Shown: positions 2,725 to 6,274 of the stretch, piece by piece
How positions within the stretch are numbered: the stretch's first letter is position 1
How the letters are laid out: each line of letters starts with the position of its first letter
Origin: a bacterium
GTDB taxonomy: Bacteria; UBA4055
Assembly: GCA_029559475.1 (NCBI GenBank)
Contig: JAKQBN010000010.1
Coordinates: 1 to 7,014, forward strand
Length of the DNA stretch: 7,014 nt
Direction of reading: 5' to 3'
The notes under the pieces: generated by a model
What the model was told of the DNA's origin: nothing
Databases searched by the model: none
Seen by the model: only the letters and a program-made list of their open reading frames with translations
Program-made: the position numbers and the translations under genes

Positions 2725-4332
2725 CTAAAAATCAGATACCAGAGTCAGCCTTAAACCATCAAATTCGGGGACCTGTCTGCATGTTCCGCCCGAACATTTG
2801 ATCCCGGACCTTTCTCTGCCGTAAAAAAGTTCAAGTTTATGATTTTCCTTTATGTTTATGCCCGCTTCGAATCCCAGCCACGAATCAGGCGAGTCATCGG
2901 GAACTTTCTGTGAAGTCGTGATCAATGATACATTAACATAACCGTATGGCGAATATTCGTATTCAACTGAACCGTAGATATCATTATAATCTTCGTCGAG
3001 AAATTCATTGTTTACTTTCTGAAGTTCTCCGCATAAAGAGATCGATGAAGTCTCGTTCATCTTTATTTTATAATCGCCCATAAATGTAAGTCTTTCGTCG
3101 GAATAAACTTCAAGCTCAGTATCCTCTCCGGGTTCTATAAGCTGGTTCACTCCTTTCGAAATAGGAGAATCCTTCATATAACCTAACCCTGCGCTGAATC
3201 TGTGGATATCTATATCCATATCAGCTCCCAGCCACGAATCCGAGTAAGGCAGATAAGTATCATCCATTTCCGGTATAATGCTGTCTCCGTTATGCTTTGA
3301 AGCTGAAGCGAAAGAACCTTTGAAGGCAGTATTATCGTTCATCTGATATTCCCAGGTGAATTTGTATCCGATCTCGTCGTTCGGATTGACTTCGTGGGGA
3401 TGGGTATTCAGAAGATGCGATGAATGCGCTATTACAAGTTCCGGAGCGTTCTGGTATGGAGTAAATCCCGATGCGGCTTCGTTGGGGTTCGCGCCGTATT
3501 TATAATAGTCCTTGAATTCAAGCCCGAGGCTTATGCCCTTTACTGCGTAACTTAAAGACGTATAATTCGCCCATCCGGTCTGCGACGGCGTTCTGTCTGT
3601 GATCTTAACAGCGTATTCGTTATACAATTCCGCATCGAACGCTGATACTTCCAAGCCGAATCCGAAAATATCCGTTTTTTCGATGAACATATCGCTGTGA
3701 AGGTACTGGTTCACGGGAACTTCGTCGCCTTTTATGAAAAGATAAGAACCGCTCAGATTCAAAGTTAGATCATCGTAATTCAGATATCTGCCGACAGGAA
3801 GTATTAGTTCGGATCCAAGAATGGCGTTATCCATTTCTTCGACTGTCTGATAAAGAGGATCGAAATCGTTAATATATTTAAAATAGCTTTTTCCGCCAAG
3901 GGCTTTAAGCCCGAAAAGCTCTCCGCAGTATTCGAATTTTCCTCCTCTAACTTTACTGTCGAAGAAATCAGCTTTAGATTCTTTTAATCCGAAAACCAGT
4001 CCTCTTCCGAAAGACCCGTAAAAATCTCCTGCGGTAATGCTTATCTTGTCTTTTGTGTAATTAAAGAACATTCTTGTGATCTCGCTTATCCTCTCATTGT
4101 GGCTGCTTGAATCGGCGGCTTCGAACCTTATTCCTGCAGTAAAATCGCCTTTTACCGCCTGCAGATCGAGCCAGTCCTCGAAATACTGCTTTTTGATCTC
4201 GATATCCTTTTTATCTCCGGCCCATTCGCTTCCCGAGCCGAACTTCATTGTATTCGTAGCTGTGATCGTTAGATCTTCCGCAAAAACCGTAAGAGCGGCT
4301 GCAGCTAATATCAGAATGATCGTCTTTTTCAA
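2725..4332 (-). CDS. DUF6029-like outer-membrane beta-barrel protein with C-terminal cysteine pair
   Basis: A 535-residue secreted protein. The signal peptide is residues 1-18 (MKKT, hydrophobic run, probable cleavage VFA/ED). Strand-like alternating stretches fill the rest, and it ends in LTLVSDF, with the terminal phenylalanine typical of outer-membrane barrels. GDFYGSFGRGLVFGLKE (102-118) and the block around residues 296-329 (APEL, HSSHLLN, NDEIGYKF) resemble the conserved segments I associate with DUF6029 proteins of Bacteroidota and relatives. Near the end, CSGGTCR (513-519) places two cysteines five residues apart. The start is TTG at 4332, with AAAGGA 8 bases upstream; no in-frame ATG is available before the signal peptide and a TAA lies just upstream in frame. 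It follows the thioredoxin-like lipoprotein gene by 12 bases, and its ribosome binding site overlaps that gene's stop, so the two are surely co-transcribed. No biochemical function is established for the family. Barrel is confident, family moderately so. Confidence 0.78.
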   Translation of the reverse strand: MKKTIILILAAAALTVFAEDLTITATNTMKFGSGSEWAGDKKDIEIKKQYFEDWLDLQAVKGDFTAGIRFEAADSSSHNERISEITRMFFNYTKDKISITAGDFYGSFGRGLVFGLKESKADFFDSKVRGGKFEYCGELFGLKALGGKSYFKYINDFDPLYQTVEEMDNAILGSELILPVGRYLNYDDLTLNLSGSYLFIKGDEVPVNQYLHSDMFIEKTDIFGFGLEVSAFDAELYNEYAVKITDRTPSQTGWANYTSLSYAVKGISLGLEFKDYYKYGANPNEAASGFTPYQNAPELVIAHSSHLLNTHPHEVNPNDEIGYKFTWEYQMNDNTAFKGSFASASKHNGDSIIPEMDDTYLPYSDSWLGADMDIDIHRFSAGLGYMKDSPISKGVNQLIEPGEDTELEVYSDERLTFMGDYKIKMNETSSISLCGELQKVNNEFLDEDYNDIYGSVEYEYSPYGYVNVSLITTSQKVPDDSPDSWLGFEAGINIKENHKLELFYGRERSGIKCSGGTCRQVPEFDGLRLTLVSDF

Positions 4333-4340
4333 TTTGAATG

Positions 4341-4346
4341 TCCTTT
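4341..4346 (-). promoter_or_regulatory. ribosome binding site fixing the TTG start of the DUF6029-like gene
   Basis: The minus strand reads AAAGGA, 8 bases before TTG at 4332. It overlaps the TAA stop of the lipoprotein gene, which supports coupled translation. A TAA in the same frame as the TTG start lies within this stretch, so the reading frame cannot begin further upstream. Confidence 0.6.
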
Positions 4347-5283
4347 ATTTTTGTTTACCGGGATATGCGAGCTGGTACATCGAATGGATCCAGTTCTCAA
4401 AAGTCGTCTGCAGATAATCATACTGTATTATCTTTCCGTTCGGAAGCACAGCGAACACCTCATTTTCTATCTCTTTTCCTATCAGGGCTTCAAAAAAGTT
4501 CTTTATAGAATCCTCACTGTCCCAGAAACAGTCGAATGGCAGCCTCTCGGTTTTTACAGCGAAACTGTTAAATTCAACTTCGGTAAAGGTATAGTTTCCC
4601 ATAAGCGAGTGAGAGTACTTCGATTGATCGTAATTAAGTGTGTCAGCATACATTGCCTTCATTTCCCTGGCTTCTTCCACGCATGACAGACAGCCTTTGG
4701 ACATGAACTGGATAAATGCGAGTTTCCAGTTCTTTTCTCTAAAATCGATCGAATCGCCCCTGGTCTCTTTAACCAAACCGAGCTCGTCATAGAACTGGTT
4801 GAACGGAAACAGTTTTGCGACTTTGAAACCGAATTTCGGGGTCTGGAAACTGTTCTCGGTTTCGTCTTCTATCTTTACGCTCAGATAGAATTCCTGAGGA
4901 TTCTCTTCCTGAACTACCGGAAAATCTTTATAGTTGAAGCTGACGGTCGCCACTCCTTCAGACGGTTCCAAGACCTTTTTTATCGGGTAGACCTTACCGG
5001 TCACTTTATCTTCAGCGCAGAATGTCAACCTGTAAAGATTCTGATTGTCAGACAACTTAACTTTGAGTTCGTATTCACCTTCAAGAATAATCTGCTGAAA
5101 ATCTGTAAATACCGCAGCGGTATCCGCGGAGTTATACAGCGTGTCAGTGCTGCTATAGACCATCATTATTTCCGCCTGCGGATCCTGGCTGTCGATGTTC
5201 AGAGGAGTTTCTGTATGGCAGGATACTGATAGAACCGCAGCTCCGACTGCAATAAAAGCGGCGACAGTCCTCTTGATTTTCAT
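4345..5283 (-). CDS. lipoprotein with Ig-like region and C-terminal thioredoxin-like domain
   Basis: A 312-residue envelope protein, probably anchored by lipid at C22 (signal MKIKRTV, hydrophobic run, then VLSVSC). The lipobox is relaxed, with leucine at -4 rather than -3. Residues about 60-155 look like a beta-sandwich or Ig-like module (EGEYELKVKLSDNQNLYRL; FYLSVKIED). From about 187 a thioredoxin-like fold begins: WKLAFIQFMSKGCLSCVEEA (186-205) matches the first strand, CxxC active site (C198, C201) and helix. VFAVLPNGKII (276-286) matches the late strand-turn-strand. The cis-proline normally just before that strand is not evident; glutamate occupies the place. The ATG at 5283 is chosen over an upstream TTG (5301) because AGGAG lies 5 bases before it. 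It is the first gene of a unit with the DUF6029-like barrel and lies downstream of a perfect palindrome. A thiol-disulfide role in the periplasm is inferred; the exact family is unknown. Confidence 0.78.
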   Translation of the reverse strand: MKIKRTVAAFIAVGAAVLSVSCHTETPLNIDSQDPQAEIMMVYSSTDTLYNSADTAAVFTDFQQIILEGEYELKVKLSDNQNLYRLTFCAEDKVTGKVYPIKKVLEPSEGVATVSFNYKDFPVVQEENPQEFYLSVKIEDETENSFQTPKFGFKVAKLFPFNQFYDELGLVKETRGDSIDFREKNWKLAFIQFMSKGCLSCVEEAREMKAMYADTLNYDQSKYSHSLMGNYTFTEVEFNSFAVKTERLPFDCFWDSEDSIKNFFEALIGKEIENEVFAVLPNGKIIQYDYLQTTFENWIHSMYQLAYPGKQK

Positions 5284-5371: not shown

Positions 5372-6274
5372 TTATTCGGACTTTTTTATATTATTTTCTT
5401 GAGATTTCCGCAGTTTCTGGCTGTAAAAACTTTCGTGAGAAGGATCTTTGTCGATTAGATACCTGATATGTTTTTCATCATCTGAAAGCGAGAATATCTC
5501 ACCGAAAGCATAAAAATTATTCATAAAAAAATTCTGCGGGAAATCGAAAACTTTTGTCATCGATTCGTACATGGGCTCGACAAAAAGCTTTGCCCGTTTC
5601 TTTTTGCCTGAATTTATAAAATAAACAGCGTTATAAATGTAAGCATGAAGTTTTCTGATCTCGAGTTTTGTATTCATTCTATACATATTAATTATATCCA
5701 GTCTTTTACTCCATACAGTTCTTTCCGCTGCGGCTGTCAGAAGGTTTTCGAACTCGTATAATTTCTGATAATAATAATCTCCTTCCAGCTTGAAATTCTT
5801 CTGGTCGGTATAAGATAGCCTGTCGAAATTCTCTCCGAGAACGAGATATGAGTAGAACATAACTGCCGTTTCTATTGTTCCCGGTTCCATCCTGTCGAGC
5901 TTAGGATCGGCTTCATAATCAAGCGTGAAGGCCATGTCCTGCTCGCTGTAATATATATCTTTTTTTAAGGCGATCTCTTTTACTGCTGATGTCGCGGGAC
6001 CGCTGCTTATAATCAGCATTCCTGTTCCGTTTTTTTCCGATGAAAGACTTTCAATGTTAATATTGATGCTCGTTTCTATCTTTTCAAAATCGTTATGTGG
6101 AAATTTCCAGTCGTAATTATCCATCTGTCTTTCTAGCGATTCTTCGAATATCCTGAGTTTGTTCGTGAGATCTGCATCCTGTTTTAAATATATGATCTTT
6201 ACAGAGAAATCGATTGCGCCGCCATAAGCACAGGCTATGTTTAAATAAATAAATATGGTTAATAATTTTTTCAT
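5372..6274 (-). CDS. DUF4835 family secreted protein (type IX secretion PorD-like)
   Basis: A 300-residue exported protein matching my recall of the DUF4835 family, which some annotation pipelines name PorD and link to type IX secretion; its mechanism is not established. Matching features in order: a short signal peptide (residues 1 to about 19); an early helix ending [10 protein letters not shown] (49-58), like the family's [18 protein letters not shown] (65-74); a strand segment [13 protein letters not shown] (86-98) in place of the family's [19 protein letters not shown] (116-124); [15 protein letters not shown] (140-154), the most telling motif; and a C-terminal half of helices with [15 protein letters not shown] (249-263) and [11 protein letters not shown] (274-284). 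Length is normal. C15 in the signal region (LNIAC) could be a degenerate lipobox, but the family usually has an ordinary signal. The ATG at 6274 overlaps the TGA of meaB by four bases (ATGA) and has only a weak Shine-Dalgarno, so translation probably depends on coupling to meaB. Confidence 0.8.

Follow-up and report, generated by a model that had tools for sequence, protein, structure and literature searches.

The stretch of DNA analysed here (7,014 nucleotides; hereafter the window) comes from Candidatus Delongbacteria, and close relatives of that name are found at 49-70% identity. On its minus strand, a gene for a probable lipoprotein is followed closely by a gene for an outer-membrane beta-barrel (Table 1). 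The sequence-only reading had described both genes within positions 2725-5283, the CLSC and CSGGTC motifs, the short gap between the genes, and a ribosome-binding site lying over the preceding stop codon. All of these features are as it claimed.

Table 1. Positions of the gene pair, its motifs and other genes in the window
Feature	Positions	Strand	Details
Exported protein gene	359-1384	minus	341 aa; no family match
DUF6029 outer-membrane beta-barrel gene	2725-4332	minus	535 aa, TTG start; PF19494, 157 bits
CSGGTC cysteine pair of the barrel	2779-2796	minus	C513 at 2794-2796, C518 at 2779-2781
Gap between lipoprotein and barrel genes	4333-4344		12 bases; lipoprotein gene upstream
AAAGGA ribosome-binding site of the barrel gene	4341-4346	minus	overlaps the lipoprotein stop codon (4345-4347)
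Probable lipoprotein gene	4345-5283	minus	312 residues; Ig-like domain N-terminal, then thioredoxin-fold domain
CLSC active-site motif of the lipoprotein	4681-4692	minus	residues 198-201 (C198 and C201), from the sequence
Gene upstream of the lipoprotein gene	5372-6274	minus	weak match to PorD

Two envelope proteins encoded side by side

The barrel is a full-length member of the DUF6029 family (PF19494), to which Pfam assigns no function. Its score stands against a model cut-off of 27 bits, and residues 1-535 align with model positions 1-538. The two cysteines of the CSGGTC motif sit in KCSGGTCRQVPEFDG near the C-terminus and represent the C-terminal pair found in the family.

The upstream gene translates to MKIKRTVAAFIAVGAAVLSVSC-HTE. 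A probable lipobox, SVSC at residues 19-22 (Cys22), was recognized by sequence inspection, and its SC is kept in relatives. Matches to this lipoprotein are found in nine other Delongbacteria genomes. Its thioredoxin domain is matched by no Pfam or NCBIfam model, the protein has no match to the curated TlpA and AhpC-TSA family models, and a PDB sequence search with it yielded no match. A home-made HMM built from the TlpA genes that adjoin distant DUF6029 genes matches residues 195-280 (E 1.6e-4). In addition, a predicted model of moderate confidence (pLDDT 70, pTM 0.49) contains an Ig-like domain at residues 37-155 and a thioredoxin fold at residues 188-306. In this model, a strand (188-194) is followed by a helix (199-213) that begins after C198, which places the CxxC motif at the helix start as in the thioredoxin fold, and the fold matches are to tryparedoxin II and Etrx1. 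An asparagine (N274, in the segment VFAVLPNGK) occupies the place where a cis-proline is usual, and from this by-eye alignment the window lipoprotein appears to lack that residue.

The thioredoxin-fold domain is distantly related to those of TlpA and other AhpC-TSA-Redoxin proteins. Unlike the TlpA types, the window lipoprotein has no thioredoxin-type Pfam match and carries an Ig-like domain at its N-terminus. Thioredoxin-fold lipoproteins of the Omp28 type (PF11551) lie beside DUF6029 genes in other families; the Omp28 Pfam model does not match the window lipoprotein. Profile comparison did not join the two either, the alignment being confined to the region around the CxxC helix with 13% probability. 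In genome G006, the lipoprotein gene is duplicated in tandem (L037:6785-7837 and 7916-8965). The copy beside the barrel has the motif CINC and the other has CINS, as if the resolving cysteine had been lost.

The next gene upstream weakly resembles PorD, a protein of the type IX secretion system (T9SS), with 24.7 bits (E 1e-5) where the model's cut-off is 170. A gene similar to it holds the same place in L033, L036 and L039.

The cysteine pair and the gene pairing across families

When 386 genomes were surveyed with the family model, 66 of them, from about 42 families, proved to carry DUF6029, and 67 DUF6029 proteins were read. The sequence-only reading had asked whether the CSGGxC pair is conserved among homologues. 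A C-x-x-[GA]-x-C pair is present in every one of the 67 proteins, and its second cysteine lies exactly 17 residues before the C-terminus in 63 of them. Identity to the window barrel falls to 21-27% outside Delongbacteria, and an alignment of 15 members (identity down to 23%) retains only 14 invariant columns, which include both cysteines. The possibility that this invariance is an artefact of an HMM that selects C-terminal motifs was rejected, since members matched only through the N-terminal or middle parts of the model (such as those from G152, G289, G018, G146 and G384) also have the pair. We propose the C-terminal CxxGxC pair as a hallmark of the DUF6029 family, which the window barrel carries in its sequence.

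Using the home-made TlpA HMM and measured distances, a thioredoxin domain was found on the same strand and no more than 700 nt upstream in 57 of the 67 loci. Four further cases comprise a fused gene (L044), overlapping reading frames (L103), a lipoprotein fragment at a contig edge (L030), and an Omp28-type gene directly upstream (L134). With these, a thioredoxin-fold gene lies directly upstream of the barrel gene or is fused to it in 61 of 66 evaluable loci, one locus (L151) being left out because it offers too little sequence. Fusions between TlpA and the barrel occur in L044, where two Pfam matches fall in one frame, and in L131. Because TlpA is fused at the N-terminus of the barrel, it is presumably periplasmic.

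Outside the window, the usual upstream partner is a clear TlpA / AhpC-TSA-Redoxin member with a WCxPC motif. In loci outside Delongbacteria, the TlpA type occupies gene position -1 in 44 of 57 cases and any other position in 0 to 5, and the Omp28 types are found mainly at positions -4 to -2 and +1. Among the Delongbacteria, nine genomes have both the barrel and the lipoprotein, both are absent from G002, G004 and G009, and G010 has the lipoprotein at a contig end. A TlpA gene is missing from the DUF6029 locus in most members of this group. Five loci keep the cysteine pair and have no upstream thioredoxin gene (L101, L104, L143, L146 and L148, the last three from one genus). In L101, two Omp28-like proteins with UxxC are encoded directly downstream of the barrel instead; the other four loci have no partner.

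Several loci show further variations. The DUF6029 proteins of L143, L146 and L148 have a CDGGTC pair and an extended N-terminus, and no thioredoxin gene is found nearby. Genome G070 carries two DUF6029 copies, L101 and L115, in different neighbourhoods, one with TlpA upstream and the other with two predicted Sec-containing Omp28-like genes downstream. In L116, L118 and L121, a second pair made up of a thioredoxin and a TlpA-like protein (WAPWCxPC, WATWCxPC) lies upstream of the TlpA-DUF6029 genes.

A conserved but uncharacterized two-gene system, with thioredoxin-like or Omp28-like genes near DUF6029, had been suspected in the sequence-only reading. The pairing in about 42 families, the upstream or fused thioredoxin-fold genes, and the Omp28 types beside them bear this out, and the cysteine pair tracks with its CxxC partner as had been anticipated. 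Homologues that keep the gene pair and lose the cysteines, which would have spoken against the idea, were sought in the 67 loci and none was found, the CINS motif belonging to the extra duplicate in G006. A conserved pair combined with a recurring gene pairing across about 42 families is more than would be expected by chance, and we consider it likely that the barrel and the thioredoxin-fold gene are functionally linked in some redox way.

Predicted selenocysteine and secreted thioredoxin-fold proteins

In three relatives of the lipoprotein from genus g6 (G007, G010 and G012), an in-frame UGA codon takes the place of the first motif cysteine, giving UASC, ULSC and ULAC. The window lipoprotein has TGT (Cys) at residue 198 and so carries no active-site UGA. 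Among the Delongbacteria, SelA is present in 13 of 13 genomes, and a tRNA-Sec scores above the cut-off in 10 of 13; the best tRNA-Sec match in G010 (41.5 bits) falls below it. Two SelA matches of near-equal score at contig starts (G000:C40 and G000:C67) are possibly an assembly duplicate.

Where they align, the three g6 lipoprotein genes share 53% identity, and a 23-nt run, GAAGAGGCAGTTGCCTTTAAAAA, located 15-37 nt after the UGA, is the same in all three and folds to a hairpin. This is the only identical run of at least 12 nt among the three genes, and it is not common to the Cys-coding relatives. Single-sequence RNA folds after the UGA codons are not clearly better than those of shuffled sequences (z -1.67 to -0.08), and the case for a SECIS-like hairpin is therefore made by the conserved run rather than by folding energy. 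Judged from sequence, the g6 lipoproteins combine a UGA at a Cys position, Sec machinery and a downstream hairpin, as bacterial selenoproteins do, and Sec at the first motif position is very likely. The same observations make it very likely that this position is redox-active in g6. A UGC-containing TlpA-family protein has been listed among selenoproteins in a review (PMC13188914).

Predicted Sec is also found in other proteins encoded near the barrel. In four Delongbacteria genomes, the gene after the barrel contains an in-frame UGA (U-P/G-G-C) and codes for a secreted thioredoxin-fold protein whose tail is of the T9SS type; in G012, a related gene lies on the opposite strand. Similar UxxC proteins occur near DUF6029 in other families (L101, L113, L116, L118, L140, L142, L145, L043, L123, L115 and L131), and the tails on the neighbouring secreted UxxC thioredoxin-fold proteins are of the T9SS, dockerin or FlgD-like type. 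Many DUF6029 loci also contain Omp28-type lipoproteins or secreted thioredoxin-fold proteins; among 14 upstream or neighbouring lipoproteins that were scanned, 10 match Omp28 and 8 have PEGA domains. Relatives of the secreted, T9SS-tailed thioredoxin-fold protein are numerous in genomes G000-G012, and several of them have an in-frame UGA. With standard gene calling, Sec-containing envelope proteins of this kind would be cut short at that codon.

The secreted UPGC proteins beside the Delongbacteria barrels resemble HBP35 of Porphyromonas gingivalis in being thioredoxin-like proteins with a T9SS-type tail. As excerpts of two reports describe it, HBP35 is thioredoxin-active, has a conserved C-terminal domain, and reaches the surface via the Por (type IX) system (PMC2907840, PMC3120885). 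It differs in that it has been studied for haemin binding, and those excerpts describe no DUF6029 partner (PMC2907840, PMC3120885). A literature search, with subscription journals largely outside its coverage, found T9SS, selenocysteine and thioredoxin combined nowhere.

SprA, which represents the T9SS, was detected in 12 of the 13 Delongbacteria. In the survey, SprA is present in 50 of 66 genomes with DUF6029 versus 52 of 320 without it, and SelA in 50 of 66 versus 128 of 320, both comparisons being confounded by the relatedness of the genomes. For this reason, neither co-occurrence is used as proof. A requirement of DUF6029 for the T9SS was considered and rejected, given that no SprA was detected in 16 of the 66 DUF6029 genomes. 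A search covering DsbD and VKOR found DsbD_TM in 12 of 13 Delongbacteria genomes and VKOR in 0 of 13, which favours the reducing direction.

Predicted location of the cysteine pair and its possible roles

In the AlphaFold2 model of the window barrel (pLDDT 80, pTM 0.76), 24 long strands are joined by short turns at one side and by long loops at the opposite side. By fold, the model is matched best by two 24-strand pores, FimD and PapC (for FimD, Z 19.1, rmsd 4.5, 376 residues), and less well by AlgE and Occ porins. Chain 6r2q_B of the Mtr complex is also among the fold matches (Z 15.0, rmsd 4.4, 385 residues). In this predicted model, C513 and C518 form a small hairpin in a loop (residues 508-523) between strands 23 and 24. 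Outer-membrane barrels usually have both ends in the periplasm, and under this topology the loop is predicted to be extracellular. Residues 514-517 have pLDDT values below 50, and it is therefore uncertain whether the hairpin lies outside or is folded into the lumen.

This location bears on the proposal, made in the sequence-only reading, that the periplasmic lipoprotein acts on the pair, and on its statement that a pair facing the cell exterior, away from periplasmic access, would count against this. The predicted model comes close to that situation, and it makes action of a periplasmic protein on the folded barrel less likely. Either the partner may act during assembly, or thioredoxin-fold proteins on the surface may act on the pair. 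The modelled position agrees better with a thiol relay at the surface, or with handling of the disulfide while the barrel is being assembled.

Our preferred reading, to which we assign a probability of roughly 0.4, is that the window pair represents the local version of a thiol redox module of the envelope that is widespread and centred on the DUF6029 barrel, with the barrel connecting thiol proteins of the periplasm to those of the surface. The C-terminal cysteine hairpin would act as a redox-active dithiol/disulfide where a large barrel (approximately 24 strands) opens to the outside, and would exchange electrons with thioredoxin-fold partners. In most lineages, the partner would be a periplasmic protein of the TlpA type, either fused to the barrel N-terminus or encoded by the gene immediately upstream, and in the window it would be the CLSC lipoprotein. 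Omp28-type lipoproteins or secreted (seleno)thioredoxin-fold proteins might serve as further partners. Reducing power might be supplied by inner-membrane DsbD/CcdA proteins, and electrons might leave towards surface-exposed or secreted thioredoxin-fold proteins. The computed support consists of the cysteine pair kept in all barrels, the paired or fused genes, predicted Sec at the first catalytic position of the partner in relatives, the modelled position of the pair, and DsbD family proteins in the genomes. From these we infer direct electron transfer, its direction, and a barrel that serves as a hub or conduit and not just as a substrate.

It seems unlikely that the DUF6029 barrels act as hubs through which a relay of thiols (and selenols) spans the outer membrane, with electrons passing from periplasmic TlpA by way of the barrel cysteine hairpin to Sec-containing thioredoxin-fold proteins on the cell surface. 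If true, such a relay would be a haem-free route for reducing extracellular disulfides or oxidants. Several points count against the preferred reading of a redox module. If the hairpin is extracellular, periplasmic TlpA could not easily reach the pair in the folded barrel, and invariance of the pair is also expected of a purely structural disulfide. The five pair-bearing barrels without an upstream thioredoxin gene and the lack of TlpA at the locus in most Delongbacteria likewise count against the module.

The main rival to a redox module is that the partner works on a structural disulfide of the last hairpin, which it would form, reduce or shuffle while the C-terminus is still periplasmic, so that the barrel can fold, and that the barrel's own job is a different one. 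We regard this as possible, if on the doubtful side. The pair adjoins the C-terminal strand at its near-constant spacing, and a disulfide there could gate insertion; the partner is adjacent or fused; and, in the model, the pair looks extracellular once folded, so that periplasmic access would exist mainly before insertion. However, a general DsbA-type enzyme should be enough for one simple disulfide, the fusions and strict one-to-one linkage suggest lasting work, and this reading does not explain why the loci also encode Omp28-type proteins and secreted, Sec-containing thioredoxin-fold proteins. Next comes the possibility, which we judge distinctly unlikely, that the barrel is a porin or exporter with a structural disulfide that passes a substrate such as a polysaccharide, a peptide or small thiols, and that the thioredoxin-fold proteins process this substrate and not the barrel. 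The resemblance of the model to FimD/PapC pores and, less well, to AlgE and Occ porins agrees with this, although a common barrel fold shows no function. In its passages on DUF6029, the one report found to name the family suggests a polysaccharide role from the similarity of DUF6029 to Wzi barrel homologues by HHpred, and these passages mention neither invariance of the pair nor linkage to thioredoxin-fold proteins (PMC9603273). However, the loci read show linkage of the barrel to thiol proteins, and no genes for polysaccharides were noticed next to it.

It is scarcely credible that the two genes lie together with no functional connection and that the cysteines are a lineage-specific feature. 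Two genes easily travel together as an operon, and five DUF6029 loci have no upstream thioredoxin gene, but the same arrangement occurs in about 42 families and the two genes are absent together from three Delongbacteria genomes. The fusions and the positional count nearly exclude such a coincidence.

No description of a DUF6029 barrel with a thioredoxin-fold system was found in the literature search, which left subscription journals largely outside its coverage. The outer-membrane barrel LptD needs disulfides for its function, and these are handled by the thioredoxin-fold proteins DsbA and DsbC. In that case the enzymes are general and are not encoded beside the barrel, whereas the DUF6029 partner is dedicated and sometimes fused. 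Mtr-type electron conduits likewise pair a large barrel with redox proteins, a comparison that concerns only how the two might work. They differ in having multihaem cytochromes inside the barrel, whereas the redox groups of the DUF6029 system would be thiols or selenols only. The pairing described here gives a family of outer-membrane barrels without known function a role that can be tested. A real redox link would amount to a dedicated bacterial thiol system that reaches the surface, sometimes with selenium. Should the partner be no more than an assembly helper, it would still be a rare example of a disulfide enzyme dedicated, and sometimes fused, to a single barrel.

Elsewhere in the window, the gene for the 341-residue exported protein lies between DUF1385 and GAF-domain genes, a place that is kept in several Delongbacteria (L030, L033 and L036). 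The same arrangement is kept in L032 as far as the contig end.
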